Virus record (IMG/VR): IMGVR_UViG_3300037189_008960
Coordinates: 1 to 21,727 of that record
DNA from: a virus
Strand: one strand, 5' to 3'
Length of the DNA stretch: 21,727 nt
Within the stretch, counting starts at the first letter, position 1, and the number at the start of each line of letters is the position of its first letter. A program made the translations under genes and the position numbers. Shown here piece after piece: positions 1 to 20,369 of the stretch. Under the pieces are notes generated by a model. It had not been told where the DNA came from. It saw only the letters and a list, made by a program, of their open reading frames with translations, and ran no database searches.

Positions 1-1376
1 GGTTCAATTGTAGTGGTAGTAGAAGTAGATGTTGTTGATGTAGTTGTAATACATGAAAAGTTAGATCCAGAATCATAACATTTTTCACCAACAACATATG
101 CTCCAGTAGGTTTTTCAATTATAACACTGCCTCCACATACTAATTGATTTACTCCTTTATTAACAGATACTGTATGATTAGTATTGACACAATCTGTATA
201 AGTAAAATCAGTGACTCCTGAAATAGATGTTAATGTAATACAATTACAACAAGGTCCTAAAGCAAGAATTAAACCAGGACTGTATTCAATTGCATCAGGT
301 TGACTATAAAATGTATCACATGAATTTGGTAATAATGTAATAACATCCGATACATCCCCATTACATTTTACGTATTGATAATAAGTATTCTGATTATATG
401 GATTATAAATATTATACTCTATACAAGCTACAGTTGTTGTTGTTGATGTTGTACTTGTTGTTGGAGGACATGTTTCTCCACATACTCCGTTATTATAAAT
501 ATCTGCTGGAAAAGTAGAAAGAATAGTATTAGGTTGTCCACAAAAACTTATTGTTTGTCCAAAATCTAAATATACAGTATTAATTGTATTTGTAAAACAT
601 TCTGTATAAGAAAAAAGATATTCATATCCTCTATATTCAGTTTCTAAATTTGTAATTGTAAAACAATCACATTGTTGATTTATTGTAGTGGTTGTAGAGG
701 TGCTAGTAGATGTAGTGGATGTAGTGGTTACTAATGGATCAGGACATTTTTTATATAATGTATGAGCATTACAACTAACTAAAGTATTTTGTAATGTATT
801 TTCTCCATTACCACTCCATAACATTTGATTCCAATTTGGAATATATGAACTTGTTATTCCTTCATATCCTAATTCTAAAATATCAGAATATGAAACAACC
901 ACCCATGTTATTGAGTTTTGAAGACTTCCATTTGTAATGTCTGTATATATTTCCCAAGGAGTAAATATAAGTTGTGGAATATTACACGGTGCTTCTATTA
1001 TTTGTAATTCTTCTGAATTATAAGATGAACAACATATAAGATAATGTATTGGACATGTTGTTGTAGTAGAAGTGGTTGTTGTAGATGTAGTACTAGTTGT
1101 AGTAGTAGACGTAGTGGTAGATGTAGTGGTAGTTGGTAAACAACAATGCTGAAGTTGAACTAACAATGTATTAATGATAGTGTTTACATTATCTCCTGTA
1201 AAAACATCAGCACATTGTAAATTAGGACCAGAATAATAAATACAATGAGATGTATATAAATCTTCACAAACAGGAACTGGAGGACATAAAGACGGATCCT
1301 CAGTTGTAGTAGTAGACATATATCCTTGAGGACATTTTTCTTCTGTGTGAATTTTACCGCAATTATAACAACTCAT
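1..1376 (-). CDS. Modular Cys-rich, Thr-linker appendage protein (3' end outside window)
   Basis: The frame is open from ATG at 1376 to the window edge (458 codons, no stop), so the C-terminus is missing. The N-terminus MSCYNCGKIHTEEKC has paired cysteines and a histidine like a short zinc knuckle. Residues 31-70 hold the module C-x5-C-[DE] followed by CIYYSG and, ten residues later, GDN, shared with the next upstream genes. Four Thr/Ser-only linkers lie at about 82-107, 217-231, 306-315 and 444-456. Between them are cysteine-bracketed domains; three copies of one small domain have cysteines at 238/260/279, 318/338/353 and 379/396/414. No signal peptide is visible. The layout suggests an elongated beads-on-a-string virion appendage, perhaps for binding the cell surface. 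The function is inferred from architecture and from its place after the tail fibre genes. Confidence 0.75.
   Translation of the reverse strand, partial: MSCYNCGKIHTEEKCPQGYMSTTTTEDPSLCPPVPVCEDLYTSHCIYYSGPNLQCADVFTGDNVNTIINTLLVQLQHCCLPTTTTSTTTSTTTTSTTSTTTTSTTTTCPIHYLICCSSYNSEELQIIEAPCNIPQLIFTPWEIYTDITNGSLQNSITWVVVSYSDILELGYEGITSSYIPNWNQMLWSGNGENTLQNTLVSCNAHTLYKKCPDPLVTTTSTTSTSTSTTTTINQQCDCFTITNLETEYRGYEYLFSYTECFTNTINTVYLDFGQTISFCGQPNTILSTFPADIYNNGVCGETCPPTTSTTSTTTTVACIEYNIYNPYNQNTYYQYVKCNGDVSDVITLLPNSCDTFYSQPDAIEYSPGLILALGPCCNCITLTSISGVTDFTYTDCVNTNHTVSVNKGVNQLVCGGSVIIEKPTGAYVVGEKCYDSGSNFSCITTTSTTSTSTTTTIE
1056..1133 (-). repeat. Thr/Ser codon array (linker 1)
   Basis: This is the longest of four ACN/TCN codon runs in the partial gene, encoding 26 residues of only Thr and Ser. 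Shorter runs occur at 684-728, 432-461 and 9-47, and in neighbouring genes at 1542-1565 and 1834-1860. Codons vary (ACA, ACT, ACC, ACG), so this is an amino-acid repeat rather than a perfect microsatellite. It probably forms an extended flexible linker between folded domains. Confidence 0.8.
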
Positions 1377-1391
1377 TTATAAATTATTTAA

Positions 1392-1616
1392 TTAACATTG
1401 ATTTATCATTCTAAATATATTTGAAAAAACATGAATTAAAGAATCACCAGTTTTTATTTGTGGACATGTATTTTCACAACCACTATAAACAACACAATTT
1501 AAATTATACACCTCATCACAAAATATTGCATCTGGACAAACTGTTGTAGTTGTCGTAGTTGTTGTAATTATGGAATCTTGACAAGAACATTCATATTGAC
1601 AATAACATGATGACAT
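1392..1616 (-). CDS. Small Cys-rich protein with Thr8 linker, paralogue of its neighbours
   Basis: This is a 74-residue protein. The N-terminus is cysteine-dense (MSSCYCQYECSC), followed by eight consecutive Thr at 18-25. Next comes the shared module: C27-x5-C33-D-E, then C41-VVYSG, ten residues, GDSL, and a short amphipathic tail ending in Cys. The stretch from C27 to G52 aligns without gaps to residues 31-56 of the partial gene downstream. It looks like a single-module version of that larger protein. The start has no competing ATG nearby and follows the previous gene by 19 bases. A small tail-appendage component or adapter is likely; no family name is recognised. Confidence 0.7.
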   Translation of the reverse strand: MSSCYCQYECSCQDSIITTTTTTTTVCPDAIFCDEVYNLNCVVYSGCENTCPQIKTGDSLIHVFSNIFRMINQC

Positions 1617-1635
1617 TTAAAAAATATTTTAATTT

Positions 1636-2091
1636 TTAATCACAAATTCCATTGTTGGTTACTACTCCATTTATGGTATATAAACTTCCTTGAATAGCAC
1701 AAATATTAATACTTTGACCTTGATTTAAAGGTGTTGGATTTACTCTTACATTTGAACAATTTATATAAGTTATTTCAACAGGTGTAGGACTATTCACGTT
1801 TGCAACATGATAAGATGTACATTGTGGTAAAACTGTAGTGGTACTAGTAGTGGTACTTGTATTACAATTAGGATATATTAAATCAACTAATCTTTGAATA
1901 ATTTCAGTGACTGTAACACCTGATTGTAATCCATATTGTTCAAATAATGTACCTTCATATATTACACAATCTGAAGGAATCATTTGAACACATGTTTCTG
2001 GATTAGAGCAATCATAATCATCACAAAAAATTGGATAATTACAATAATCTATTTTAAAATCACAAGTATTTAAACAGTTACAATTATTCAT
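1636..2091 (-). CDS. Two-domain Cys-rich protein with Thr linker, paralogue of its neighbours
   Basis: This is a 151-residue protein read from MNNCNCLN at 2091. That start sits 10 bases after the preceding stop and is preceded by AATATT; an upstream in-frame ATG at 2136 would intrude into the previous gene. Domain 1 carries C17-x5-C23-DD, then C42-VIYEG, ten residues, and GVTV, matching the module in the neighbours with an 11-residue insertion. A Thr/Ser linker spans 78-86. Domain 2 has cysteines at 91, 112 and 131, nearly the same spacing (21, 19) as one bead of the large partial gene (22, 19). It is thus a compact two-bead member of the family. A role on the virion surface or tail is inferred. 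Confidence 0.72.
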   Translation of the reverse strand: MNNCNCLNTCDFKIDYCNYPIFCDDYDCSNPETCVQMIPSDCVIYEGTLFEQYGLQSGVTVTEIIQRLVDLIYPNCNTSTTTSTTTVLPQCTSYHVANVNSPTPVEITYINCSNVRVNPTPLNQGQSINICAIQGSLYTINGVVTNNGICD

Positions 2092-2101
2092 AATATTATG
2101 A

Positions 2102-2581
2102 TCAATAACAGTTATTACAATCAGTATCAAGCACACCTATTAAATAGGAATAGTTTATAACACCCCCGCCACCATTACTTATTTTAAGTTTAGGTGCTTG
2201 TAAACCTGATGGTACTTTTAATTTAAGATAATAAACATTACTATGAATGTCATGACAACCCACTTTTACTAGTCCTGAAAATGTTAGAGGTTGTTCATTG
2301 ATCCAGTTTGCTAACAATGTACTATTGTAATTATTATAATTACTAGGTACAAGAAATACAGCATCACCAATAATTAAGCTACTAAAAACAGCATCTTGTA
2401 ATGAACCTGTAGTATCTCTTTCCCATGTAAATTTATAACATAAATAACTTGATATGTTAGGCAGATTTTTACAATCAGATGTTATCTGACCATCACCATC
2501 CACTGTAACTGATACCACACTAGATGTATTTGGTAAAGTGAGACATTCACCTGGATTTAATACAATTGATTTTATAGCCAT
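2102..2581 (-). CDS. Virion-associated protein of unknown function
   Basis: This is a 159-residue protein starting MAIKSIVLNPGECLTLP at 2581, 10 bases after the previous stop. A longer frame back to 2653 would overlap the upstream gene and begin with low-complexity residues, so the shorter start is preferred. The sequence alternates hydrophobic and polar residues and looks like a beta-sandwich; a GGGG turn precedes the C-terminus. It ends TDCNNCY, a Cys-x2-Cys tail resembling the end (LDCKQCNY) of the protein at 9143-9697. From memory, similar proteins sit beside tail genes in other Bacteroidota phages, but no function is known to me. Confidence 0.7.
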   Translation of the reverse strand: MAIKSIVLNPGECLTLPNTSSVVSVTVDGDGQITSDCKNLPNISSYLCYKFTWERDTTGSLQDAVFSSLIIGDAVFLVPSNYNNYNSTLLANWINEQPLTFSGLVKVGCHDIHSNVYYLKLKVPSGLQAPKLKISNGGGGVINYSYLIGVLDTDCNNCY

Positions 2582-2591
2582 TTTAATAATT

Positions 2592-3932
2592 TTAAGGATT
2601 AATTGTTGTTGTGTTTGTTGATGTAAATCCTTGTGCACCACCGTTATCATCATAAACTACTACCACTGTACCTGTTGTACCAGTAACACACAATTGACAG
2701 AAGTTACAAGCAGAATTATAAATTATTTCTTTATGTATACATTTTACACAATTTAGTGTACCATTTGTAATACAAGTATTTGAATCAATATAAATTGTTC
2801 CATCTGTGCTTATATTTCCTGGTAGTAAAACAGAATACCCATCTGTTAATGCAGTGGGATCATTTAAAATATCTTCTCTAATTTTAATATAAATTGTAGA
2901 GCTGTGCCCTAAATTATCTGTAATTGTAAATTTAGTTCCTAAAGTTGTATTACAATCGTGGAATGTTACTGGAATGTTTGTTTTTTCACCAAAATAGAAT
3001 ACTAAACTAAATTCATCAGCTTCTGTATTATAATTCAACACTACATCAAAATCTACTACAAGATCATCACAGTTAATAGAACAACAAGTATCTTGAATTA
3101 TGCTAACAGCAGATCTTAAATCACATATAGATAACCAAATTTTTTCTAAAGTTTGAGCTAATGAATTTGATGATCCTGTCCAAAGAATTACAGCTGGGTC
3201 AGCTAATGATTGAATCACTGTTGCAGGAGCAACTGGTGTACATTCATTATTAGTTATAGAAGATAAAATTTCAGTGGGTAAACCTGTTGCTTGTCTTAAT
3301 TGACAAAACGAAGATTCCAACCCCATTAATGCATCATCTATATCTTTAGGTACTGGTGAACTAGAACAAATAGGGGTCACTTTAATAACACCTGCTGCTT
3401 CTAATGCATCTAAACGTGCATCTATACTTATAATTGCACTATCAATGCCATTTAATGTAGCATCAATATCATTTAATCTACTTAATATAGTACATATCTT
3501 TTGTGCAATTTTTTGTACATAAATTGATACAGGAACTGGATTTGTAATATCACCATTGGAATCTGTAAAATCAGAAATAAAACAACTTGCCAATCTTACT
3601 TCTATATCAGATGTACTACCAATTGTTAATGAGTCAATTATTTCTTGTAAATCACATACTTTATTTATCAATAATTGTAAAACAATACCTAATGTTTTTT
3701 CTGGATCAGGACATGTTATACAATTATCCACTAAACATTTTAAATCTAAATCAGTAAGATTTAATTGATCTTTTAAATCACAAATTTCTGTTGCAAGTTT
3801 ATATATGACATCTGATACAGAATCTCCATTGCATAAATTAATACATGATAAATCTGATCCTTGCCATATCACGCAATTAGATGATACAGGAGAACAACTT
3901 TCTTTATTTATATTTGATTTTGTAGGAATCAT
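2592..3932 (-). CDS. Structural protein with five helical Cys repeats and a beta C-terminal domain
   Basis: This is a 446-residue protein. Near the N-terminus C20-VIWQG, ten residues and GDSV form the module shared with the three Cys-rich proteins downstream. The N-terminal two thirds repeats a helical unit of the form hydrophobic-x2-I-C-[DQ]-L, anchored at C51, C93, C147, C210 and C270. A strongly heptad-like helix covers about 150-180 (LNDIDATLNGID...DARLDALEAA), suggesting trimeric coiled coil. From about 290 to the end the sequence becomes beta-rich with further Cys pairs. It probably forms a fibrous tail appendage. It is the first gene after the longest fibre-side gap and follows a candidate promoter at 4005. 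Confidence 0.72.
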   Translation of the reverse strand: MIPTKSNINKESCSPVSSNCVIWQGSDLSCINLCNGDSVSDVIYKLATEICDLKDQLNLTDLDLKCLVDNCITCPDPEKTLGIVLQLLINKVCDLQEIIDSLTIGSTSDIEVRLASCFISDFTDSNGDITNPVPVSIYVQKIAQKICTILSRLNDIDATLNGIDSAIISIDARLDALEAAGVIKVTPICSSSPVPKDIDDALMGLESSFCQLRQATGLPTEILSSITNNECTPVAPATVIQSLADPAVILWTGSSNSLAQTLEKIWLSICDLRSAVSIIQDTCCSINCDDLVVDFDVVLNYNTEADEFSLVFYFGEKTNIPVTFHDCNTTLGTKFTITDNLGHSSTIYIKIREDILNDPTALTDGYSVLLPGNISTDGTIYIDSNTCITNGTLNCVKCIHKEIIYNSACNFCQLCVTGTTGTVVVVYDDNGGAQGFTSTNTTTINP

Positions 3933-4042
3933 TATTTAAAATATTTTTTAATACAAAAAGATATCTTGATTACAATATAATATACGTTAAAATTAAGACA
4001 TTACCAAAATTATATATTAGACTATACTTGCATAGTTTTCTT
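3933..4042. other. Intergenic gap before the Cys-rich gene set
   Basis: No ORF fits in these 110 bases. On the minus strand they contain TAATTTTG, a match to the Bacteroidota -7 consensus, and just beyond the gap edge a short inverted repeat ACTAT/ATAGT (4021-4036). No T-tailed hairpin is seen, so upstream transcription may read through. Confidence 0.5.
4005..4012 (-). promoter_or_regulatory. Candidate -7 element TAATTTTG
   Basis: The plus strand reads CAAAATTA, so the minus strand reads TAATTTTG, which fits TAnnTTTG of Bacteroidota. The -33 region is weak (ATG 18 bases upstream instead of TTG). A start site here would leave a leader of about 65 bases before the gene at 3932. Confidence 0.35.
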
Positions 4043-9823: not shown

Positions 9824-11113
9824 TTATAAAGTTTCAATAACAACACCATTTCCAGCATTTGTTAAGATTGTTTGTAACAAAGTTGTAAAAGTGGTATATG
9901 TAGTACCAGCTTTTATCCAAACTGTTAACAAATATTGATCATTATCAAATGTACCTGTAGGATTGTTAAAACGTGGAACACTATGTAAAATGTTAACAGA
10001 GTTATACAAATCATCAGTGCTAAAATCACGAATTGCAGACGGTACTTCAATTTGACGCATTCTTAAACTATCAGTAAAGTTTCCATCAGGAAATGCTTCT
10101 TGACGATAACGATTAGATAAGATTACATCTCTAATTACTGTATTACCTACACCTTGTGCTTGTTTTGGAACTTGTACTTCAGCAACATAAGTTCCAGCAG
10201 GATTAGCAGCTGAAAAATTATATTGTCCTGTAATTGTTACACATTGTACATTACAAGGGTCACCACTTGTGTCAGTTAATGACAACAATATATTAATTGG
10301 TTGCAACTCATAATGATCAGTGATACGGAATGTACATGTTCCAAATTTAGTATCTTCATATGCACCAGTAAAACGCAATTTTGACTTAGCAGTAGCGGCA
10401 GTTGCAGGATCAGCAGCATATGCAGCCACCCAACCTGAAGTTGTTGAACTATAGGCATCTAATGCAGCAACAAATGCTTCTACAGTAGAGTAGTCAGCTT
10501 GATTAGCTACAGATACACTATTCCAGTCATAAACTCTTAGTTGTACAAAATTTTTCAAAATTGGATCTTGTGCAATTGACTTAGCCCAATTAATTGTTAC
10601 AATTGTAGGGTCTACAATAGCACCAGTACAAGTTGCAGAACAATCATCAGTGCAACATCCAGTGTAAGCAGAAACTGTTTTGTAAATGTTGTGTGATAAA
10701 AAACGCAATGCTGGACTACCTTTCAAATCAATACGTAAATTGTAATTTGTTCCACACTCCATGCTACAAACACTGATATCTTTAATGTGTTGTTGTGGAG
10801 CATTAGAAGTAGTAGTAAATACTCTACTAATGTACTTTGGATTAATTACTTTAGACTTAACTGACTCTTGATAACCACCATGGTAAGGTCCAATTTTATC
10901 ATTTGTAAAATAAGATCCTTGAGCTAAAATAAAGGGAGTGTTAGGAGTTGGAGCTGTGGTAAAACTTTGAAAAGTTTTTGCATTAAAAAGACCAAGCTGA
11001 CCAGCTGTTAAAGCACTTGTAGGATTATTAGCAGCAATTAATGCTAATGCACCACTAGTAATTCCATTAGGTCCTAATAAAAAGGATTTCTTAAAGGCGT
11101 GATTAAAATACAT
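9824..11113 (-). CDS. Large virion structural protein (tail or connector region)
   Basis: This is a 429-residue protein. The N-terminus (MYFNHAFKKSFLLGPNG) and the stretch ILAQGSYFTNDKIGPYHGG near 62-80 recall, from memory, an abundant structural protein of Bacteroidota phages. The sequence is beta-rich with a cysteine cluster at residues 116, 120, 153, 154, 158 and 162 and another CNVQC near 290. It has its own strong terminator and follows the ferritin-like gene by 28 bases. The isolated, terminator-ended gene suggests high expression, as for a tail tube or similar repeated subunit; the exact role is uncertain. Confidence 0.72.
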   Translation of the reverse strand: MYFNHAFKKSFLLGPNGITSGALALIAANNPTSALTAGQLGLFNAKTFQSFTTAPTPNTPFILAQGSYFTNDKIGPYHGGYQESVKSKVINPKYISRVFTTTSNAPQQHIKDISVCSMECGTNYNLRIDLKGSPALRFLSHNIYKTVSAYTGCCTDDCSATCTGAIVDPTIVTINWAKSIAQDPILKNFVQLRVYDWNSVSVANQADYSTVEAFVAALDAYSSTTSGWVAAYAADPATAATAKSKLRFTGAYEDTKFGTCTFRITDHYELQPINILLSLTDTSGDPCNVQCVTITGQYNFSAANPAGTYVAEVQVPKQAQGVGNTVIRDVILSNRYRQEAFPDGNFTDSLRMRQIEVPSAIRDFSTDDLYNSVNILHSVPRFNNPTGTFDNDQYLLTVWIKAGTTYTTFTTLLQTILTNAGNGVVIETL

Positions 11114-11141: not shown

Positions 11142-11588
11142 TTATTTTAGAAATAGTAATTTATATTTTGCAGAGTTTATGCTAGATTTAGCAGTATCAA
11201 GTGAATTTACAATTTCACTATAAGGCATTATTGATTGTAAATTTGATATCATATCTTTCATATCTCTTAAATATTGTAAACCTTCTTCAACAGTTTGTAA
11301 TGATTTAGGAGGCACATCTTGATAAACTAAAAGTTCTTCAGCAGCACCTTGATATTCTTCAGCTAAATCATCAGCATGTTCTGGAAAAGCATCATATATA
11401 TTATTTAGTGCTTTATGTGCAGCATAAGATGCTAAACCAGTTACTTTTAAATGCAGTTTATGTAAACTTGTTCCAGCATTCATCATTTCTGAAACACAAG
11501 CTGCTGTTTTTGCAGAAAGACTATTGTCTTTCATAGGAGCTGTAGTTTGTTGTGTTTTTAAAGATCTTTTTAAAATATTATTTTCCAT
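11142..11588 (-). CDS. Ferritin/Dps-like phage protein
   Basis: This is a 148-residue, mostly helical protein. Residues 43-90 (HKLHLKVTGLASYAAHKALN onward) resemble the core of Dps: H46, H58, D73 and E77 are spaced 12, 15 and 4 residues apart, the same as H51, H63, D78 and E82 of E. coli Dps, which bind iron at the dimer interface. The Dps residue D67 is Asn here. From memory it also resembles small ferritin-like phage proteins annotated DUF5856. A further helix pair occupies 95-148 (LQTVEEGLQYLRDMKDMISN). It could store or oxidise iron, or be a helical structural protein that kept the fold. It lies between the connector-type gene (one-base gap) and the large structural gene. Confidence 0.65.
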   Translation of the reverse strand: MENNILKRSLKTQQTTAPMKDNSLSAKTAACVSEMMNAGTSLHKLHLKVTGLASYAAHKALNNIYDAFPEHADDLAEEYQGAAEELLVYQDVPPKSLQTVEEGLQYLRDMKDMISNLQSIMPYSEIVNSLDTAKSSINSAKYKLLFLK

Positions 11589-11589
11589 A

Positions 11590-12288
11590 CTAAGTAGATT
11601 TTTGTGCGTTTGCTTGTGATCTTTGATATTGAGTAATTGATTCTATATCTCCAGCTATTATAGAAACAGCTTCATCAATAATTAATTCTACAATATCATC
11701 TTTAAATTCACTAATTTGATCTGTGTTAATCAACCCTGTAGCAGGATTAATACAACCATCAAATGTTACATCAAGTGGTTTTCTGTAATAAGAAAGAAAT
11801 ATATCTTCTACTTGAAAATCATTATTAGTATATATTTTAAATTTATTATTACTTAGTGTAGCAAATGTTTCTCCCCATTCAAAACTAGGTCCTTTAAAAG
11901 GGTCTGTTAAAAGAAGATCTGCGTTTGCTTCTTCAGCTAAATATATTTTAAAATGTCTACCCTTACATTCATCTTTTTTTCCAGTGATACCTATTTTAAT
12001 AAAATAAGAATAATCGTTTGGAATGTTTTTACTTTCACAATATAATAGTTTATTTTCTCCTTTTAGTTCTGAAAATGCAACAAATTTTTGTAAATCATCT
12101 ATTAATCCTAATGATTGTTCTGAAGCTTCTTTTCTTGAATTTAAACCATGTACTTGTCTTCTAAACCACTCTCTTTGAGCTTTATTATATGCTTCAGCAA
12201 TCTGCCAACATTCTATATTATCATAATCAAATGATGCAAGTTTATTAAGTCTTTGCTGAAATTTTATTCTTAAAAGAGTGTTTTTCAT
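11590..12288 (-). CDS. Head-tail connector / ring-type protein
   Basis: This is a 232-residue protein. The N-terminal helix region with W28-QIAEAYNKAQREWFRRQVHG is characteristic of a protein conserved in crAss-like phages and compared with tail-completion proteins such as P22 gp4 (from memory). A central beta insertion runs about 65-160. The C-terminal part LSYYRKPLDVTF...FKDDIVELIIDEAV is typical of connector proteins that bind below the portal. The start is two bases after the preceding stop. Position among virion genes after the capsid protein fits a ring stacked between portal and tail. Confidence 0.7.
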   Translation of the reverse strand: MKNTLLRIKFQQRLNKLASFDYDNIECWQIAEAYNKAQREWFRRQVHGLNSRKEASEQSLGLIDDLQKFVAFSELKGENKLLYCESKNIPNDYSYFIKIGITGKKDECKGRHFKIYLAEEANADLLLTDPFKGPSFEWGETFATLSNNKFKIYTNNDFQVEDIFLSYYRKPLDVTFDGCINPATGLINTDQISEFKDDIVELIIDEAVSIIAGDIESITQYQRSQANAQKST

Positions 12289-12289
12289 A

Positions 12290-12529
12290 TTAACATTTCC
12301 ATTTTTTTAAAGCTAATGCTTTTCTTGTAGGTTCACCATTAGGTTTTTTCATTGGTCCTTCTACACCAGACATTCTAGCACAAAAAGACTTTTTTCTTGG
12401 TCCACCTTCTGGTTGAGGAGCTTTTAAATGTCCTCCTGTTTCTTTGTTATAAGAATCTCTACCTTTTTGATTTAAACCACCACTAGGTGATTTACCTTCT
12501 GCTCTTTGCCATGCTGGAGTTTTTGCCAT
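12290..12529 (-). CDS. Small basic phage protein, DUF6321-like
   Basis: This is a 79-residue protein rich in Lys, Gly and Pro, beginning MAKTPAWQRAEGKSPSGGLN and ending RKALALKKWKC. The pattern W-x-R-x-E-G-K-[SN]-P-x-G-G-L-N, then SFCARMSG and PTRKALALKKW, matches from memory a small protein widespread in phages of marine and freshwater bacteria (annotated DUF6321). The family has no established function; the charge suggests nucleic-acid binding or packing inside the head. It sits two bases after the next small gene and just before the connector gene. Confidence 0.8.
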   Translation of the reverse strand: MAKTPAWQRAEGKSPSGGLNQKGRDSYNKETGGHLKAPQPEGGPRKKSFCARMSGVEGPMKKPNGEPTRKALALKKWKC

Positions 12530-12813: not shown

Positions 12814-13830
12814 TTATTTTTGCCAAGATTTCTCTACTTTTCCTTGAACATCAACTAATATTTGTTCATTCAAAGGATTTTTAAAAAATTCTAATACATC
12901 AGATGGTGTTCTACCAAGAATTGTACCACTTTCTAAATGATAGATAAAACCATCAGCTCGTGTTGCAATTAATTTTAAAAATGATGCATCTTTTATAATA
13001 GATCTAATTTTTAATGATTCCATATCATAACCTACAACTTCTAAGAATTTTTCAGCTGTACGTTTTTTATTATTATCTACACCTTCACCATTAATGTATT
13101 TATCCATGTTATCATACATTACATCTGTAGGAGTAGATTTTTTATATTGAGAACTATTTGTATCTACAATTTTTGATACATAAAATAACTTATTTGTATT
13201 TTTATCAAAAAGTTTTTGTAGTTCAGATAGTGCTTTATTTCTAAGTTTTTTATATTCAGTTTTAGTAGAAATTGTACTTTCTAACTTATCTAAATAAAAT
13301 TTTGGAGGTATTGCCATTTTTCTAGCTGCTTCAAATGATTTTGCTACTATAGAAAAACCTCCATTTTCAATAGCAATAAGTTTTATAAGATCATATGGAT
13401 CTCTATCTGGTTCTAGAAATAGAGGTTCATTACCACAAGCTATTCTAATTCTTCCCCAAAACTCATCATTATCAGGTTTTAAAAGTTTTATCTTATTCCA
13501 AAATTCTGGATCTTCTGGTTTTACAACATTAGCTGCTAATTCTTTTTCAAGTTGAGAAACAATAATTCTAATTTGTTTAATTTTAGCATCTTGTTCTTCA
13601 TCACTTAAATTTTTAACATCTGGAGCAAATTCATTCAATCCTGTTACATATCTTTTTATACCATTCATTTCTAAACAAGCAAGTTGTTCTTCATGAAATG
13701 TATTATCAAAGAGCGATAATCCATATTGTTCAAGTCCCATATTAGATCTTGTTTGTTCAAAATATGGTCTAATTGCTATACTGGATTTTTTATTTTGTGG
13801 ATATCCTTCCACAATAGTTACACTACTCAT
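12814..13830 (-). CDS. Virion-region protein of unknown function
   Basis: This is a 338-residue protein with mixed charge, mostly predicted helical: for example KQIRIIVSQLEKELAA at about 85-100 and FWNKIKLLKPDNDEFWGRIR at about 109-130. Conserved-looking features are the early FEQTRSNMGLEQYGLSLFDN and a C-terminal GFIYHLESGTILGRTPSDV. No signal peptide, membrane segment or known catalytic motif is visible. Its place between head genes and the connector gene fits a structural or internal (ejected or cargo) protein. I do not recognise the family with confidence. Confidence 0.7.
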   Translation of the reverse strand: MSSVTIVEGYPQNKKSSIAIRPYFEQTRSNMGLEQYGLSLFDNTFHEEQLACLEMNGIKRYVTGLNEFAPDVKNLSDEEQDAKIKQIRIIVSQLEKELAANVVKPEDPEFWNKIKLLKPDNDEFWGRIRIACGNEPLFLEPDRDPYDLIKLIAIENGGFSIVAKSFEAARKMAIPPKFYLDKLESTISTKTEYKKLRNKALSELQKLFDKNTNKLFYVSKIVDTNSSQYKKSTPTDVMYDNMDKYINGEGVDNNKKRTAEKFLEVVGYDMESLKIRSIIKDASFLKLIATRADGFIYHLESGTILGRTPSDVLEFFKNPLNEQILVDVQGKVEKSWQK

Positions 13831-13876: not shown

Positions 13877-14326
13877 TTAATCTATTTTAACAATTTCATA
13901 ATAAAAATATAAGTCTCCCCAGTTTTGATTGTCTTTTACATCAACAATTTGTATGTGAAATAAATCAGTGGAAATACCTTTACCATATATAATTGGTACA
14001 GCTATACCGCTACTGTAAACAGTTAATTGCAAATAAAATTTTTCTCTATCTGTCTCAATTTCTTGATGTTGTAAATATATATCAAAAGTCTCAGTACTTA
14101 TCTCAAAATTAACTACATCAACAATACCCTTTTTAGAAGATATTCTTAATGTTCCAGATGAATTCTCATTTAAATCTAATTCATAAGATTTAATATCCAT
14201 TATATCTCTACTAAGTCTATTGACATGAGCTATTCTTGCAACAGCAGCTTCTGCAATTGAGTAAGCTTGTTCAATAGCTCTTTCAGGAGATTTAGGTAAT
14301 TGTATAAGTCTTTTAAGAGATATCAT
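13877..14326 (-). CDS. Virion-region protein of unknown function
   Basis: This is a 149-residue protein. A short helical N-terminus (MISLKRLIQLPKSPERAIEQ, then AEAAVARIAHVNRLSRDI) precedes a beta-rich domain from about residue 47 to the end (FEISTETFDIYLQHQEI; QLTVYSSGIAVPIIYGKGI). This fits a small jelly-roll or beta-sandwich virion protein, such as a capsid decoration or stabilising protein, but that is inference. Its leader contains a strong nested hairpin. The next gene starts 46 bases later. Confidence 0.68.
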   Translation of the reverse strand: MISLKRLIQLPKSPERAIEQAYSIAEAAVARIAHVNRLSRDIMDIKSYELDLNENSSGTLRISSKKGIVDVVNFEISTETFDIYLQHQEIETDREKFYLQLTVYSSGIAVPIIYGKGISTDLFHIQIVDVKDNQNWGDLYFYYEIVKID

Positions 14327-14672: not shown

Positions 14673-16295
14673 TTAGAATGAACCACCAGTGATAGGGTTA
14701 CGCATAACAATTTTAAGCACTTTAGTTGGATCTTTTACCCAAATAGCTGGCATTGTTTGTGTCATAAATACTCTATAACCGTTGAATTGTCCACTAGATT
14801 GGAAACCTTGTGTACGACCCATATAGTCCATAGTACCATTTTGATAAAACCATTTTAATTGGTTATCCCAACCTAACTTCAACAAATAAATGTTATCATT
14901 AGTGTTATCAGTAATATCAAAAATAATAAAGTTATAAGAACTCAATGGGAAACCATCAATGATTGGATTCTCAATATCATTAGTGTGTACGTTATCAAAA
15001 GCTGGATTTAATACAAACTGAACATTAGCTAAGAATGGAATTACATAACTAGTGTAAGCATATCCAAAGTTCAAGTCCATACCTTGACCAGTGATAGCAC
15101 CAATTTCAGAGGCATTGATAATCAAACCAGAGTTTACAGCTTCACGCTTGATAGCTTCATTTACCATTCTCATACCACCCATACCTGTTTGTACAACAAG
15201 TTTGCGTTTAGGATCAGGACCTTTGAATTCTACACGACCATTGAAGAAGTTAAATATCTCAGATTTAAACAAATCTAATGTAAAACTTGATTTGTTATAA
15301 ATACGCTTGTATGAGTTATCCAATTGTTTCCAAAGACCTACAGACAATCTAATATCATCTGGACCATCTTGTTTCACTCTACCGCCATGACCCCACATCA
15401 AATATGTTTCAATGTCAGTGGCAATCTTAGTCAAGTGAGCAGCTTCCATAGTAGTCAAGAAAGTACGAGTAAGAGTACCACCTTCAATGGCTTTCTTAAC
15501 ATATTCTTTACCCATTTTAGCAGCAAGACCTTCTAAACTACTTACTGAAGGATCATTTGTTTTGTCAAAGTTTCTCCAGATTTCTGTAACAGGTACAGAA
15601 CCATCTTGCTTTAAACCACCTTTCATCATCAAATCAGCACGACTTGATACAGAATAGTGTACGTGTGCTTCAGCACCACCTACAAAGTTATAAAACTCTC
15701 TGTATCCAGAACCATATGCTCCAATATCAGAGAATCTTTCACCATATTCACCTCTTGCAGAACCTTTACGGAAGAACTTAGTACCATTTTTTAAATACTT
15801 TCCAGCATCTAAAAATTTAGTGTTGTCATTATTTACCAATTGAACGGTGTAAATAACACCATCTGGAACAGGGATAATGTCTTCAGTGGGTACAATATAA
15901 AGTTCCACTCCATTGTACTTATCATAAGTGACAATATCGCCACTACCAAAAGTACGCTTATTCAATTTAATTTTGAAAGTGGTACCATCAGCTCCAAGTT
16001 CATTGTTAGATTCAATATTCTCAACTACATAAGGTAGATCTTGAGATACTGGAACTTGCCATTTGTACTCTCCACGAGCATTATCTACATTAATTACATT
16101 CTTTCCACCAAAGCTAGACATTTGGTACAAAGGCATTTCTACCTTTTGAGCCATTGCCCAAAGATCTACTGGACCCATATCCATAGGTTCAGCACTCTTT
16201 AGCATGTTAACAAGGTGGTAAGAGTCTACATGAGAACTAGCATTATAGCTTGTGTCACGTAGGAATATACCATTGTTTAAAACTGGAGTTGCCAT
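14673..16295 (-). CDS. Major capsid protein
   Basis: This is a 540-residue protein with the length and position (after portal and scaffold-like genes) expected of a crAss-like HK97-fold capsid protein. The N-terminal arm contains PMDMGPVDLWAMAQKVEMPL and a GEYKWQVP segment. The body includes GGAEAHVHYSVSSRAD and a motif-like KLVVQTGMGGMRMVNEAI, where a conserved spine-helix region would lie. The C-terminus has several aromatic beta strands ending MRNPITGGSF. It ends with a strong terminator of its own, consistent with very high expression. The family is recognised from overall resemblance, not a search. Confidence 0.82.
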   Translation of the reverse strand: MATPVLNNGIFLRDTSYNASSHVDSYHLVNMLKSAEPMDMGPVDLWAMAQKVEMPLYQMSSFGGKNVINVDNARGEYKWQVPVSQDLPYVVENIESNNELGADGTTFKIKLNKRTFGSGDIVTYDKYNGVELYIVPTEDIIPVPDGVIYTVQLVNNDNTKFLDAGKYLKNGTKFFRKGSARGEYGERFSDIGAYGSGYREFYNFVGGAEAHVHYSVSSRADLMMKGGLKQDGSVPVTEIWRNFDKTNDPSVSSLEGLAAKMGKEYVKKAIEGGTLTRTFLTTMEAAHLTKIATDIETYLMWGHGGRVKQDGPDDIRLSVGLWKQLDNSYKRIYNKSSFTLDLFKSEIFNFFNGRVEFKGPDPKRKLVVQTGMGGMRMVNEAIKREAVNSGLIINASEIGAITGQGMDLNFGYAYTSYVIPFLANVQFVLNPAFDNVHTNDIENPIIDGFPLSSYNFIIFDITDNTNDNIYLLKLGWDNQLKWFYQNGTMDYMGRTQGFQSSGQFNGYRVFMTQTMPAIWVKDPTKVLKIVMRNPITGGSF

Positions 16296-17642: not shown

Positions 17643-20369
17643 TTATTTTTTCTTATTATTTACTTTATCATACTTATTTTTATTTTCTCTAGCAACTTGT
17701 AATTGTTTTTCAGCAATTTGTAATCTAGAGTTTATTTCTTTTTCTTTAATATCATTTTGACTTCTTGAAATGTTCATTCTATTCACTTCTTTCTCACGTT
17801 GCATGTTCATTTGTTCTTGATAATTATCTTGTTGTCTTATTTTTTCCATTGCATCTTGATAGTCACTTTGTTTATTCTCATTAATGTCCATCATAGACCC
17901 ATATCCAGCAGATCTAATTTCAGCTTGTAATATTTGTGATTGTCTATTTTTTTCATTTTCTTGAGCTTCAAACTCCATCTTTATTTTAGCTTCTTGTTGA
18001 CGAGCTTGTATCTCTTGTTGTGCTAAATCTTGTTGTTGTTTTGCTTGTTCTTGTCTAATAGCATTAACTTTCTCTTCAGCAGATTTAAGTACACTTGTGA
18101 GTTCTGCAATAGATTCAGATTTGATAATATTGCCAAGATCATAAATTGAAGAACCTGATGTATTATTTTGTAAAGCAAGTTGTTTAAGTTGATCAAGTAT
18201 AGCTCTATGATTATTTTTAGTTGTAGCAAATACATTTAAGTCTCTTGCTAATAAATCAATACCGTTCATTTGAAAATTTACTTTTTCATCGGTACTTGTC
18301 ATATATTGTAAGCGTACACTTGGGTTTTTAGATTGATAATATTGTGCAAGATCTGTCCTCATTGTATGCACACGAGGCATTAAATAATCACTGTGTTGTA
18401 TAAAATAGTGTTCAGTTTGTGCATATGAATTTACAACAGCTTGTTCTACACCTGTAGCTGTTTGTTGACCTGTAACAGATCCTAGACGTTGAGGACTTAT
18501 ACCTATACTTTCAAATGCTTGATTTTTAAAATAAGCACCAAGTTGTATTCTTGACATCAAACGCTGTGTTTGTTCTAAATTTAATACTTGATAGTGTTGA
18601 AAATTAAGTGCATTTTCTGTATTGGTAATTGATGTATCTAAAGGAAGCATCTGAAAATTTTTCATTGCTACATATGCTTTAGCTAAATTATTCTTACCCC
18701 AATCCTCACCCATGGAATGACGCGGTAAAGAATTTTGATCTAACATAATTACAGTTCCTAATTCATCTACTAGAATATCTGCAATCTGATTATTTACAAT
18801 GTTAAAACCAATTTGGTATGGTTTCATTAAGTCCACTAAAGATACTGATCTTGTATTTCTATCTGAAAACACTGAACCTTCCACTGGTAGTTTACAACCA
18901 TATACAGTGTTGTCACCTTTAAATTGGAATGGTAATTTTTTTACATTAATATACATTGGTGCTAAACCACCTGGGTTATTCATACCCCAAAAACTTGGTC
19001 TATTTGGACCCACTTTAATTCCACCCCATGTTTCATTAATCCATATCCAATCAATATGTTCACCAAAAATTAAATTGTCCTTGGTTTTATTTTTTACATA
19101 TTGTGTATTGTATTCAGGTTTTTCTGTAACTTGATATGATTCATCAACAATATCTTGTGTAATACTTCCATCTTCATTAATACTTGTAAGATGTCCCACT
19201 TTACGTTGAGATTTCCAATATAATGTTGTAGCTCTTAGCATATGTGTAGGACCATAATCTAAAAAGTCTTCACCTTCAGCTAATATCCATTGAACAATAT
19301 CACCATTGTAAGGCATATTTTCATATGTAGATAAAAATTGTCGATATGCTAAAGATGGACCTTCAACATTATATGCATGAGATCTAGTGGCATCATAATA
19401 ACTACCATCATTTTGTAAACCACCTAAAGGTAAACCTGCTGAACGAACAGGATATATAGCTTCTAGAGCTTCAAGTTGGTCTTGTGTCATTAAATATCCA
19501 TACTTGTCTATAATATCAGATACAGTGAGGATATCAATTTTACCCACCCAATTACCTTGAGATATATATCTAGCACTTGGTGATTTATGATAGAATGTTA
19601 AAAGAGGATTCCATAACTCAACTTCATAATCATCTTCATTCATTTTAAAATGCCAAAATTCACGGTCAGTGATTAACATGTCTTTAAATGCCATGTTCTC
19701 CAACTCATACATATGAAAACGTTCTTCATCTACTTTTTGTTGATGTGTTGCCCATTCTTCAACAAGTGATCTATAATCTTTTTTAAAAAAGGCTTCAATT
19801 TCTGGTAGTGATTTAAGAGCTTCAGGATTAAGAGCTTTTTGAGCTTCTTCAGAATTAGGGTCCATACCCATTTTAATCATCTTCATAACAGCCTCTCTTT
19901 CAGCATCAGCTAATAGAGTTTGTTCTATCATATCTCTTTTCTCCTCCATCATTTCATTATAAGAAATATCATCAACAGCTCTAAACATAATTTTAGATGT
20001 ACGTTTAGAAAATTCACCTGTTAATACATTAATTACATTTGGAATAATAGGATAAAACTTTAATTCTAATGCAGAAGCATCTTCTTTTGTAAGAGTTTCA
20101 ATTAAATCTGCATATTCATTATCATCTTCTATAATATAATCACTACGGTCAATTATACCTTTTGCTAATTTATAATTTTTTAAAAGTCTTCTTGCATTAC
20201 GTCTTATTTGTTTAATGCCTTGCCATTCTAACCAATCACAATTCCATGCTCCCCATTCTTCATCTTTTTCTTTTTTAGGTAGAAATTGAATAGGTTGGGT
20301 GAGCGTACCCATTTTATTGTATGACGTTTTTTTACCAGCTTTTAGATCTAGTGCATTATATACTTGCAT
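17643..20369 (-). CDS. Portal protein
   Basis: This is a 908-residue protein. The segment HMYELENMAFKDMLITDREF and the following VELWNPLLTFYHKSPSARYI are strongly reminiscent of crAss-like portal proteins, as is the large size. The N-terminal half includes a helical clip/stem-like region and RISEGD-like ISQGNWVGKIDILTVSDIID. The C-terminal ~150 residues (from about 758) form a long Gln/Glu/Lys-rich coiled coil (NAIRQEQAKQQQDLAQQEIQ and onward), probably the barrel or a tail projecting into the head. The dodecameric ring would sit at one capsid vertex for DNA entry and exit. It lies downstream of terminase, as is usual. Confidence 0.87.
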   Translation of the reverse strand: MQVYNALDLKAGKKTSYNKMGTLTQPIQFLPKKEKDEEWGAWNCDWLEWQGIKQIRRNARRLLKNYKLAKGIIDRSDYIIEDDNEYADLIETLTKEDASALELKFYPIIPNVINVLTGEFSKRTSKIMFRAVDDISYNEMMEEKRDMIEQTLLADAEREAVMKMIKMGMDPNSEEAQKALNPEALKSLPEIEAFFKKDYRSLVEEWATHQQKVDEERFHMYELENMAFKDMLITDREFWHFKMNEDDYEVELWNPLLTFYHKSPSARYISQGNWVGKIDILTVSDIIDKYGYLMTQDQLEALEAIYPVRSAGLPLGGLQNDGSYYDATRSHAYNVEGPSLAYRQFLSTYENMPYNGDIVQWILAEGEDFLDYGPTHMLRATTLYWKSQRKVGHLTSINEDGSITQDIVDESYQVTEKPEYNTQYVKNKTKDNLIFGEHIDWIWINETWGGIKVGPNRPSFWGMNNPGGLAPMYINVKKLPFQFKGDNTVYGCKLPVEGSVFSDRNTRSVSLVDLMKPYQIGFNIVNNQIADILVDELGTVIMLDQNSLPRHSMGEDWGKNNLAKAYVAMKNFQMLPLDTSITNTENALNFQHYQVLNLEQTQRLMSRIQLGAYFKNQAFESIGISPQRLGSVTGQQTATGVEQAVVNSYAQTEHYFIQHSDYLMPRVHTMRTDLAQYYQSKNPSVRLQYMTSTDEKVNFQMNGIDLLARDLNVFATTKNNHRAILDQLKQLALQNNTSGSSIYDLGNIIKSESIAELTSVLKSAEEKVNAIRQEQAKQQQDLAQQEIQARQQEAKIKMEFEAQENEKNRQSQILQAEIRSAGYGSMMDINENKQSDYQDAMEKIRQQDNYQEQMNMQREKEVNRMNISRSQNDIKEKEINSRLQIAEKQLQVARENKNKYDKVNNKKK

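Follow-up and report, generated by a model that had tools for sequence, protein, structure and literature searches.

The stretch of DNA analysed here (21,727 nucleotides; hereafter the window) comes from an uncultivated crAss-like phage, identified as such by its virus record and by its capsid and portal matches, and represents the phage's head module. Its genes follow the order terminase, portal, g406, capsid, g149, g338, DUF6321, g232, Dps, g429, g184, g152 and fibre. The features relevant to this work are the following:

17643–20369, minus strand: portal protein (phrog_6547, E = 7.1e-91)
14673–16295, minus strand: major capsid protein (PF23898, Crass_capsid, E = 1.1e-30)
12814–13830, minus strand: g338, conserved gene after the capsid protein gene, in the same order as crAss001 gp33 (synteny)
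12290–12529, minus strand: small basic DUF6321 protein, just upstream of g232 (PF19846, E = 1.3e-25)
11590–12288, minus strand: g232, probable tail-ring or connector protein, upstream border of the slot (phrog_29507, phi4:1 gp062)
11142–11588, minus strand: Dps-like protein of the ferroxidase type, 148 aa, DUF5856 (translation, Pfam PF19174, PHROG 858, predicted model)
11523–11588, minus strand: N-terminal tail of that protein, residues 1–22, predicted to be disordered (pLDDT), with the tag MENNILKRSLK common to slot ferritins
11358–11453, minus strand: stretch with its four putative iron ligands, read from the sequence and invariant in homologues (codons: H46, 11451–11453; H58, 11415–11417; D73, 11370–11372; E77, 11358–11360)
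9824–11113, minus strand: g429, which borders the slot downstream and is homologous to the crassvirus auxiliary capsid protein gp36 (fold match)

In crAss001, the capsid gene gp32 is followed by gp33, the ring protein genes gp34 and gp35 and the auxiliary capsid protein gene gp36. Sequence comparisons of the slot neighbours with gp33 (a weak profile match to g338), gp35 and gp36 were too weak to count, so that the assignment of g429 to gp36 rests on its fold. The AlphaFold model of g429 (pLDDT 77) had gp36 (7qof_a) as its sole Foldseek match below 0.001 (E = 1.7e-10), and the two structures could be aligned over 308 residues at 3.9 Å (VIA Z 17.1). The g232 profile matched the crAss001 ring protein gp34 weakly (E = 0.09); its homologue in phage phi4:1, gp062, found via phrog_29507, is a virion protein detected by MS/MS, and phi4:1 gp061, which occupies the position of g429, has likewise been found in virions by MS/MS. 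Thus, judging from the fold of g429 and the matches of g232 and phi4:1, the Dps gene is located between probable tail-ring and auxiliary capsid genes. Of the phages with related neighbour genes, phi4:1 and FpV4 infect Bacteroidota, and one, Lbo-JY46, infects a cyanobacterium. At the other end of the window (positions 3–4000, minus strand), several neighbouring proteins have cysteine-rich repeated domains joined by threonine-rich linkers (TTTTSTTT), and the DNA contains short repeats of 9–18 bases; these could be modular surface proteins.

The first-pass annotation had reported a Dps/ferritin-type protein with an intact ferroxidase set inside a virion operon, and this description is supported by the fold, the conserved ligands and the crAss-like head module; the coordinates 11142–11588 proved correct, with the open reading frame on the minus strand. 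On sequence grounds, the protein is a member of the DUF5856 family and Dps-like in function. The profile search that the annotation had proposed yielded a DUF5856 match (PF19174, E = 2.1e-12) of 48.4 bits, above the gathering cut-off of 34.6, and no match to the Ferritin-like domain model of Dps and ferritins (PF00210) at E values up to 1. A further match was to PHROG 858, named 'starvation-inducible transcriptional regulator' (E = 1.9e-17). When the protein was compared with the PDB using phmmer, the top match was H. pylori NAP, a Dps (E = 0.0068), the other best matches were also Dps, and the alignment with NAP was ungapped and in register across the ligand motif. The putative ligands H46, H58, D73 and E77, previously counted by hand at the Dps spacing of 12, 15 and 4 residues, were confirmed at exactly these positions in the translation. 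They are invariant in all 156 distinct slot Dps sequences and are also kept in the much more distant homologues from phiR1-37 and P19250A. We regard ferroxidase competence of the slot protein as very probable. Two other features are conserved. H43, located three residues ahead of the first ligand, is invariant and also present in HP-NAP. The C-terminus (within residues 128–148) contains a YKLxFLK motif that is nearly invariant and has the form YRLKFLK in the phiR1-37 homologue.

The AlphaFold model of the monomer, built with 70 relatives (mean pLDDT 88), is a four-helix bundle of the Dps/ferritin type with helices at residues 24–48, 54–83, 100–120 and 124–146. Structural comparisons of this model returned Dps and ferritins throughout, the best being MsDps2 (Z 16.1, 126 residues, 2.3 Å), and E. 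coli Dps was matched with a Z of 14.5. Two of the expectations on which the first-pass reading depended, a four-helix bundle and ligands conserved in homologues, are therefore borne out. The short BC helix, which in Dps lies in the B–C loop at the two-fold axis, is absent, as residues 84–99 contain no helix in the model. Because of this missing helix and the unmatched PF00210, we refer to the protein as Dps-like and not as Dps. As H58 and D73 are 15 residues apart on a single helix of the modelled monomer, the four-ligand site would be expected to form only between subunits, as it does in the Dps dodecamer with its 23 symmetry. The N-terminal tail has pLDDT values below 50 at residues 1–3 and 6–20. 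Among the BFVD matches to the model are stretches of three uncultured phage proteins of 333–763 aa annotated as 'Prohead protease' (A0A6J7WIS1, A0A6J7WPK9 and A0A6J7XDU5), and other long predicted viral proteins also contain a Dps-like stretch. If the 'prohead protease' names are right, Dps domains may possibly be fused to head-maturation proteins in other phages.

Analysis of related metagenomic contigs in IMG/VR (loci designated L below) showed that the gene occupies a dedicated slot. All 80 relatives found with the Dps query had the same surroundings, and the slot lay between g232 and the auxiliary capsid gene in every locus checked. Three queries with g232 retrieved 221 loci that were unselected for slot content: the slot held a Dps in 132 of them and a ferritin in 21 (an iron-storage protein in 153 of 221), was empty in 64 and contained something else or an uncalled gap in the remaining 4. 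Some of the close relatives found with g232 carry a gene of about 196 aa in place of Dps. By its sequence this is a classical ferritin, with a PF00210 match at 1.5e-17 and matches to bacterial ferritins in the PDB at 8e-19. Seven ferroxidase-region residues that were checked are invariant in 28 of 28 slot ferritins; L091 and the others keep E17, E50, H53, E94, Q127 and E130. L048/L049 and L178 have ferritin and Dps genes in tandem. One lineage (L075:4628–6007 and L337:4717–6096) has a gene for a 459 aa protein ahead of Dps, the only large foreign gene seen in the slot. Among bacterial genomes, only three contigs were found, and the two inspected carry the same phage slot, with tags MINKLQRP, in what look like misbinned MAG contigs.

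The place of the slot gene is vacant in phi4:1, Lbo-JY46, FpV4 and crAss001. The first three of these have the flanking genes with an empty slot, so that our search of isolates yielded no cultured host for a direct test. We also found no Dps or ferritin elsewhere in 15 long contigs with empty slots, which indicates that the slot gene is dispensable. In one sub-clade (L163–L168 and most of L287–L362) the slot is nearly always empty, which offers an ecological contrast. Outside the slot, a second crAss-like lineage (L193, L195, L196) encodes a ferritin directly between the portal and the scaffold/capsid genes, with no LxR tag, and the more distant L206 has an untagged ferritin between portal and capsid genes, as in L193 (coordinates L193:3977–4501, L195:4004–4528 and L206:3992–4489). 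These portal-adjacent ferritins mark a separate, second occasion on which ferritin entered a head module.

The occupant of the slot has been exchanged many times. On a tree of g338 and g232 with 163 rows, built by a quick method after removal of near copies, Dps and ferritin must have replaced one another at least 18 times, and most of these changes are forced by well-supported branches. The window phage, which carries Dps, is sister to L091, which carries ferritin, with 100% support on this tree. As the ligands of the slot Dps and the ferroxidase residues of the slot ferritins are both invariant, iron chemistry appears to be what is kept when one protein is exchanged for the other.

A second feature shared by the two folds is a short N-terminal tag. 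The window Dps starts with MENNILKRSLK and the ferritin of its sister L091 with MESNILKRSLK; further pairs are MESKPRMLKRPEAV (L064 Dps) with MEQKPRMLKRPEVV (L198 ferritin) and MQKLSRPSIFST (L090 Dps) with MQKISRPTIFST (L102 ferritin). The tandem genes of L178 have the near-identical tags MQKIVRPTVF and MQKIPRPSVL. The core of the tag consists of a hydrophobic residue, any residue, and R or K, often followed by P (LKR, QKLxRP, QKISRP), and longer tails may hold two copies. The pattern [LI]xR occurred within residues 2–14 in 86 of 90 distinct Dps and 20 of 22 ferritins, against 36 of 840 other ORFs from the same loci. In loci fetched later it was present in 28 of 43 Dps, 6 of 7 ferritins and 10 of 637 other ORFs. 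The Dps rate fell from 96% to 65% out of sample, still 40 times the background, because the expression had been fixed on the first loci and missed variants of the tag; most of the exceptions carry such variants (VKRP, VQRP, GLSRP, LKK). Composition-preserving shuffles of the tails gave 17 hits among 133 Dps, where 121 were observed, and 5 among 30 ferritins, where 29 were observed. Homologues and ferritins from outside the slot (phiR1-37, P19250A, L193, L206) do not have the tag.

Across Dps–ferritin pairs, the similarity of the tags rises with the similarity of the neighbouring g232 and g429 (rho 0.43 and 0.49, respectively, in the first set; 0.32 for each in the larger set), which shows that the tag belongs to the phage lineage and not to the fold. 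No permutation reached the observed rho for either gene (p < 0.002), although P values for the tag overstate the evidence because the sequences are related; the stronger argument comes from the number of exchanges that the tree requires. As to a partner for the tag, correlations were seen for g232, for the auxiliary capsid gene and for g184, which partial correlation tests do not clearly separate, whereas g338 drops out.

Overlap between genes was rejected as the origin of the tag, since the start of the slot gene coincides with the g232 stop codon or follows it closely, and the codons for R, P and L vary. Conservation of the tag could come in part from recombination if the breakpoints lay immediately behind the 5′ end of the gene; the variation in codons speaks against such an origin, as does the retention of the tag by two folds in one genome. 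We found no other conserved family with the tag in these loci, and LxR was seen by eye only in scattered proteins: in g149 among the closest kin of the window, at the N-termini of a small number of g338 and g232 proteins, and in certain small basic proteins. The stretch between g338 and g232 is variable (0.5–3 kb) and encodes small, very basic proteins and DUF6321 proteins (e.g. L218:2003–2618, L253:1314–1895 and L026:4367–4792), some of which have the tag-like starts MAKQMLKRKDG or MAQLKRN. In the window, g149 (13877–14326) has a tag-like N-terminus, MISLKRLIQLPKS, and could be another docking protein; among its closest kin the start reads MISLKRL, with LKR kept in 4 of 8.

The fact that the exchange of Dps and ferritin keeps the same short N-terminal tag suggests that these phages attach iron-storage cages to their particles. 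The position of the gene in a late operon is by itself no proof of packaging; the tag, the neighbouring capsid gene and the pattern of exchange make association with the virion more likely. We hold with moderate confidence that a ferroxidase cage is docked to the virion or procapsid by its N-terminal peptide, and our inferences on iron binding and cage assembly, on the partner that the tag binds and on the location and benefit of the cage are as follows. The ferroxidase-competent DUF5856 protein would build a hollow, iron-storing cage, whose gene a clade of environmental crAss-like phages would keep in a dedicated slot of the head–tail module. The docking motif in the disordered tail would bind a structural partner of the phage and so tether the cage to the procapsid or virion, and the identity of the cage would be exchangeable, a true ferritin with the same tag filling the slot in other members. 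Once attached, the cage would oxidise Fe(II), using O2 or H2O2, and store the iron. The benefit might be the shielding of the particle and its DNA from Fenton damage by Fe(II) and peroxide, the delivery of iron at infection, or both.

Such a cage might be located on either side of the capsid shell. It could be cargo inside the capsid, comparable to the internal proteins of T4 and to the cargo of crAss001, which packs about 5.5 MDa of cargo protein (PMC10172136). Alternatively, it could sit outside, docked on hexon pockets in the manner of the crAss001 head fibres, the N-terminal segments of which dock in hexon pockets formed by the capsid and auxiliary proteins; uncharacterised proteins are expected to dock likewise in other groups (PMC10172136). 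The slot gene adjoins the auxiliary gene, and the phiR1-37 homologue (g280) is annotated as 'phage structural protein'. A cage of 9–12 nm would probably be too large for the tail channel. The N-termini of ferritins are located on the exterior of the cage, near the three-fold axes, so that one cage would present numerous outward-facing tails, which could attach to a surface of repeating units. The more general proposition, that virions carry interchangeable Dps and ferritin nanocages via one lineage-specific N-terminal peptide and that the particle is an iron-handling compartment, seems to us evenly balanced between true and false.

Phage-encoded Dps is known from gut and Lactobacillus phages, where it has been proposed to help the host to tolerate oxidative stress (PMC8008677). 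By extension, the slot protein could be a soluble late enzyme that clears Fe(II) and peroxide in the infected cell without being packaged, its tag having some other role, for example in protein stability or in recruiting the protein locally while particles assemble. The absence of the slot gene from some lineages would fit this explanation, as would the case of crAss001 gp7, a distant relative annotated as 'putative DpsA' whose gene lies in the tRNA/early region, separate from the structural block, and which is unnamed among the virion proteins in the part of the source available. We nevertheless consider a soluble enzyme rather unlikely, given the fixed position between ring-like and capsid-auxiliary genes and a tag that is rare outside slot genes and tracks the structural neighbours rather than the fold.

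The tails are mildly basic (median net charge +2 in Dps and +4 in ferritins), and E. coli Dps contacts DNA via its N-terminal lysines. The tail might accordingly be a DNA-binding arm by which the protein condenses or protects phage DNA directly, but we judge this improbable: the conservation is of a specific short motif, frequently including a proline, that exceeds what composition would give, and not of mere charge, and the swap with ferritin, which is no DNA-binding family, would be hard to explain if selection acted on DNA binding by Dps. As for a four-helix bundle that serves purely as a virion part without iron chemistry, one of the roles offered in the first-pass annotation, the structural neighbours and a YKLxFLK motif that may be an assembly contact would be in keeping with it, but it is very improbable because the alternative occupant, a ferritin, differs in size and assembly type and has invariant ferroxidase residues of its own, all four Dps ligands are invariant too, and the slot can be empty.

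Although phage Dps is already known, the exchangeable, tagged slot appears to be new; a full-text search of the open-licence literature returned no report of ferritin in crAss-like phages, of the exchange between Dps and ferritin or of the tag. Phage genes for Dps and other antioxidant proteins are usually taken as accessory genes that serve the infected cell. Here, the arrangement points to the particle instead: the capsid module holds a slot, its occupants share a single docking tag, and iron cages of two different folds have replaced each other many times. If tethering of the cages is confirmed, the tag would offer a defined peptide with which cages could be docked to crAss-like capsids, and there would be a mechanism for particle-borne iron, which bears on ideas of phage-carried iron in aquatic systems. 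The vague labels DUF5856 and 'starvation-inducible transcriptional regulator' would also give way to a mechanism that can be tested. Encapsulin shells descend from phage capsids, and the particle would be either a viral counterpart of ferritin-loaded encapsulins or a ferritin-decorated particle.

Among known systems, the Dps family (E. coli Dps, H. pylori NAP, MsDps2) shares with the window protein the H-12-H-15-D-4-E motif, aligned in register, and the four-helix bundle. The window protein differs from it in having no BC helix in the model, a shorter B–C loop and no tryptophan after the first ligand histidine, in its phage-specific N-terminal tag and conserved YKLxFLK C-terminus, and in being unmatched by PF00210. 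The phage proteins of DUF5856/PHROG 858 (phiR1-37 g280, RB49 rI.-1 and crAss001 gp7) belong to the same family as the slot Dps, but those that we have seen lack the LxR tag and have other gene neighbourhoods. The slot ferritin resembles bacterial FtnA in its PF00210 domain, its best PDB match (8e-19) and its ferroxidase residues; unlike FtnA, it has an N-terminal extension of 25–48 residues with the phage tag, and its gene is located in a capsid module.

Encapsulins are HK97-fold shells that take up ferritin-like cargo by means of short targeting peptides (PMC8346489). The likeness to the phage slot lies in the HK97-fold shell lineage, the iron-storage cargo and a short conserved peptide on unrelated folds. 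It is a functional parallel by analogy, with no shared family: the targeting peptide of Family 1 encapsulins is C-terminal, whereas the shared slot tag is N-terminal and has a different motif, and the shell here would be that of a complete crAss-like phage, in which the cages may be packaged. Docking of the crAss001 head-fibre proteins gp21 and gp29, whose N-termini have no clear sequence similarity to the slot tag, is comparable in being N-terminal and at the auxiliary protein, next to whose gene the slot gene is located. In phage T4, the capsid targeting sequence is an N-terminal peptide that internal proteins need in order to enter the procapsid core and that the head protease removes. This sequence is conserved among internal proteins that differ widely in other respects (PMC3012670). 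The slot tag can be likened to that sequence by its position and by being a short peptide common to unrelated folds, with the difference that the tagged slot set is restricted to iron-storage cages.
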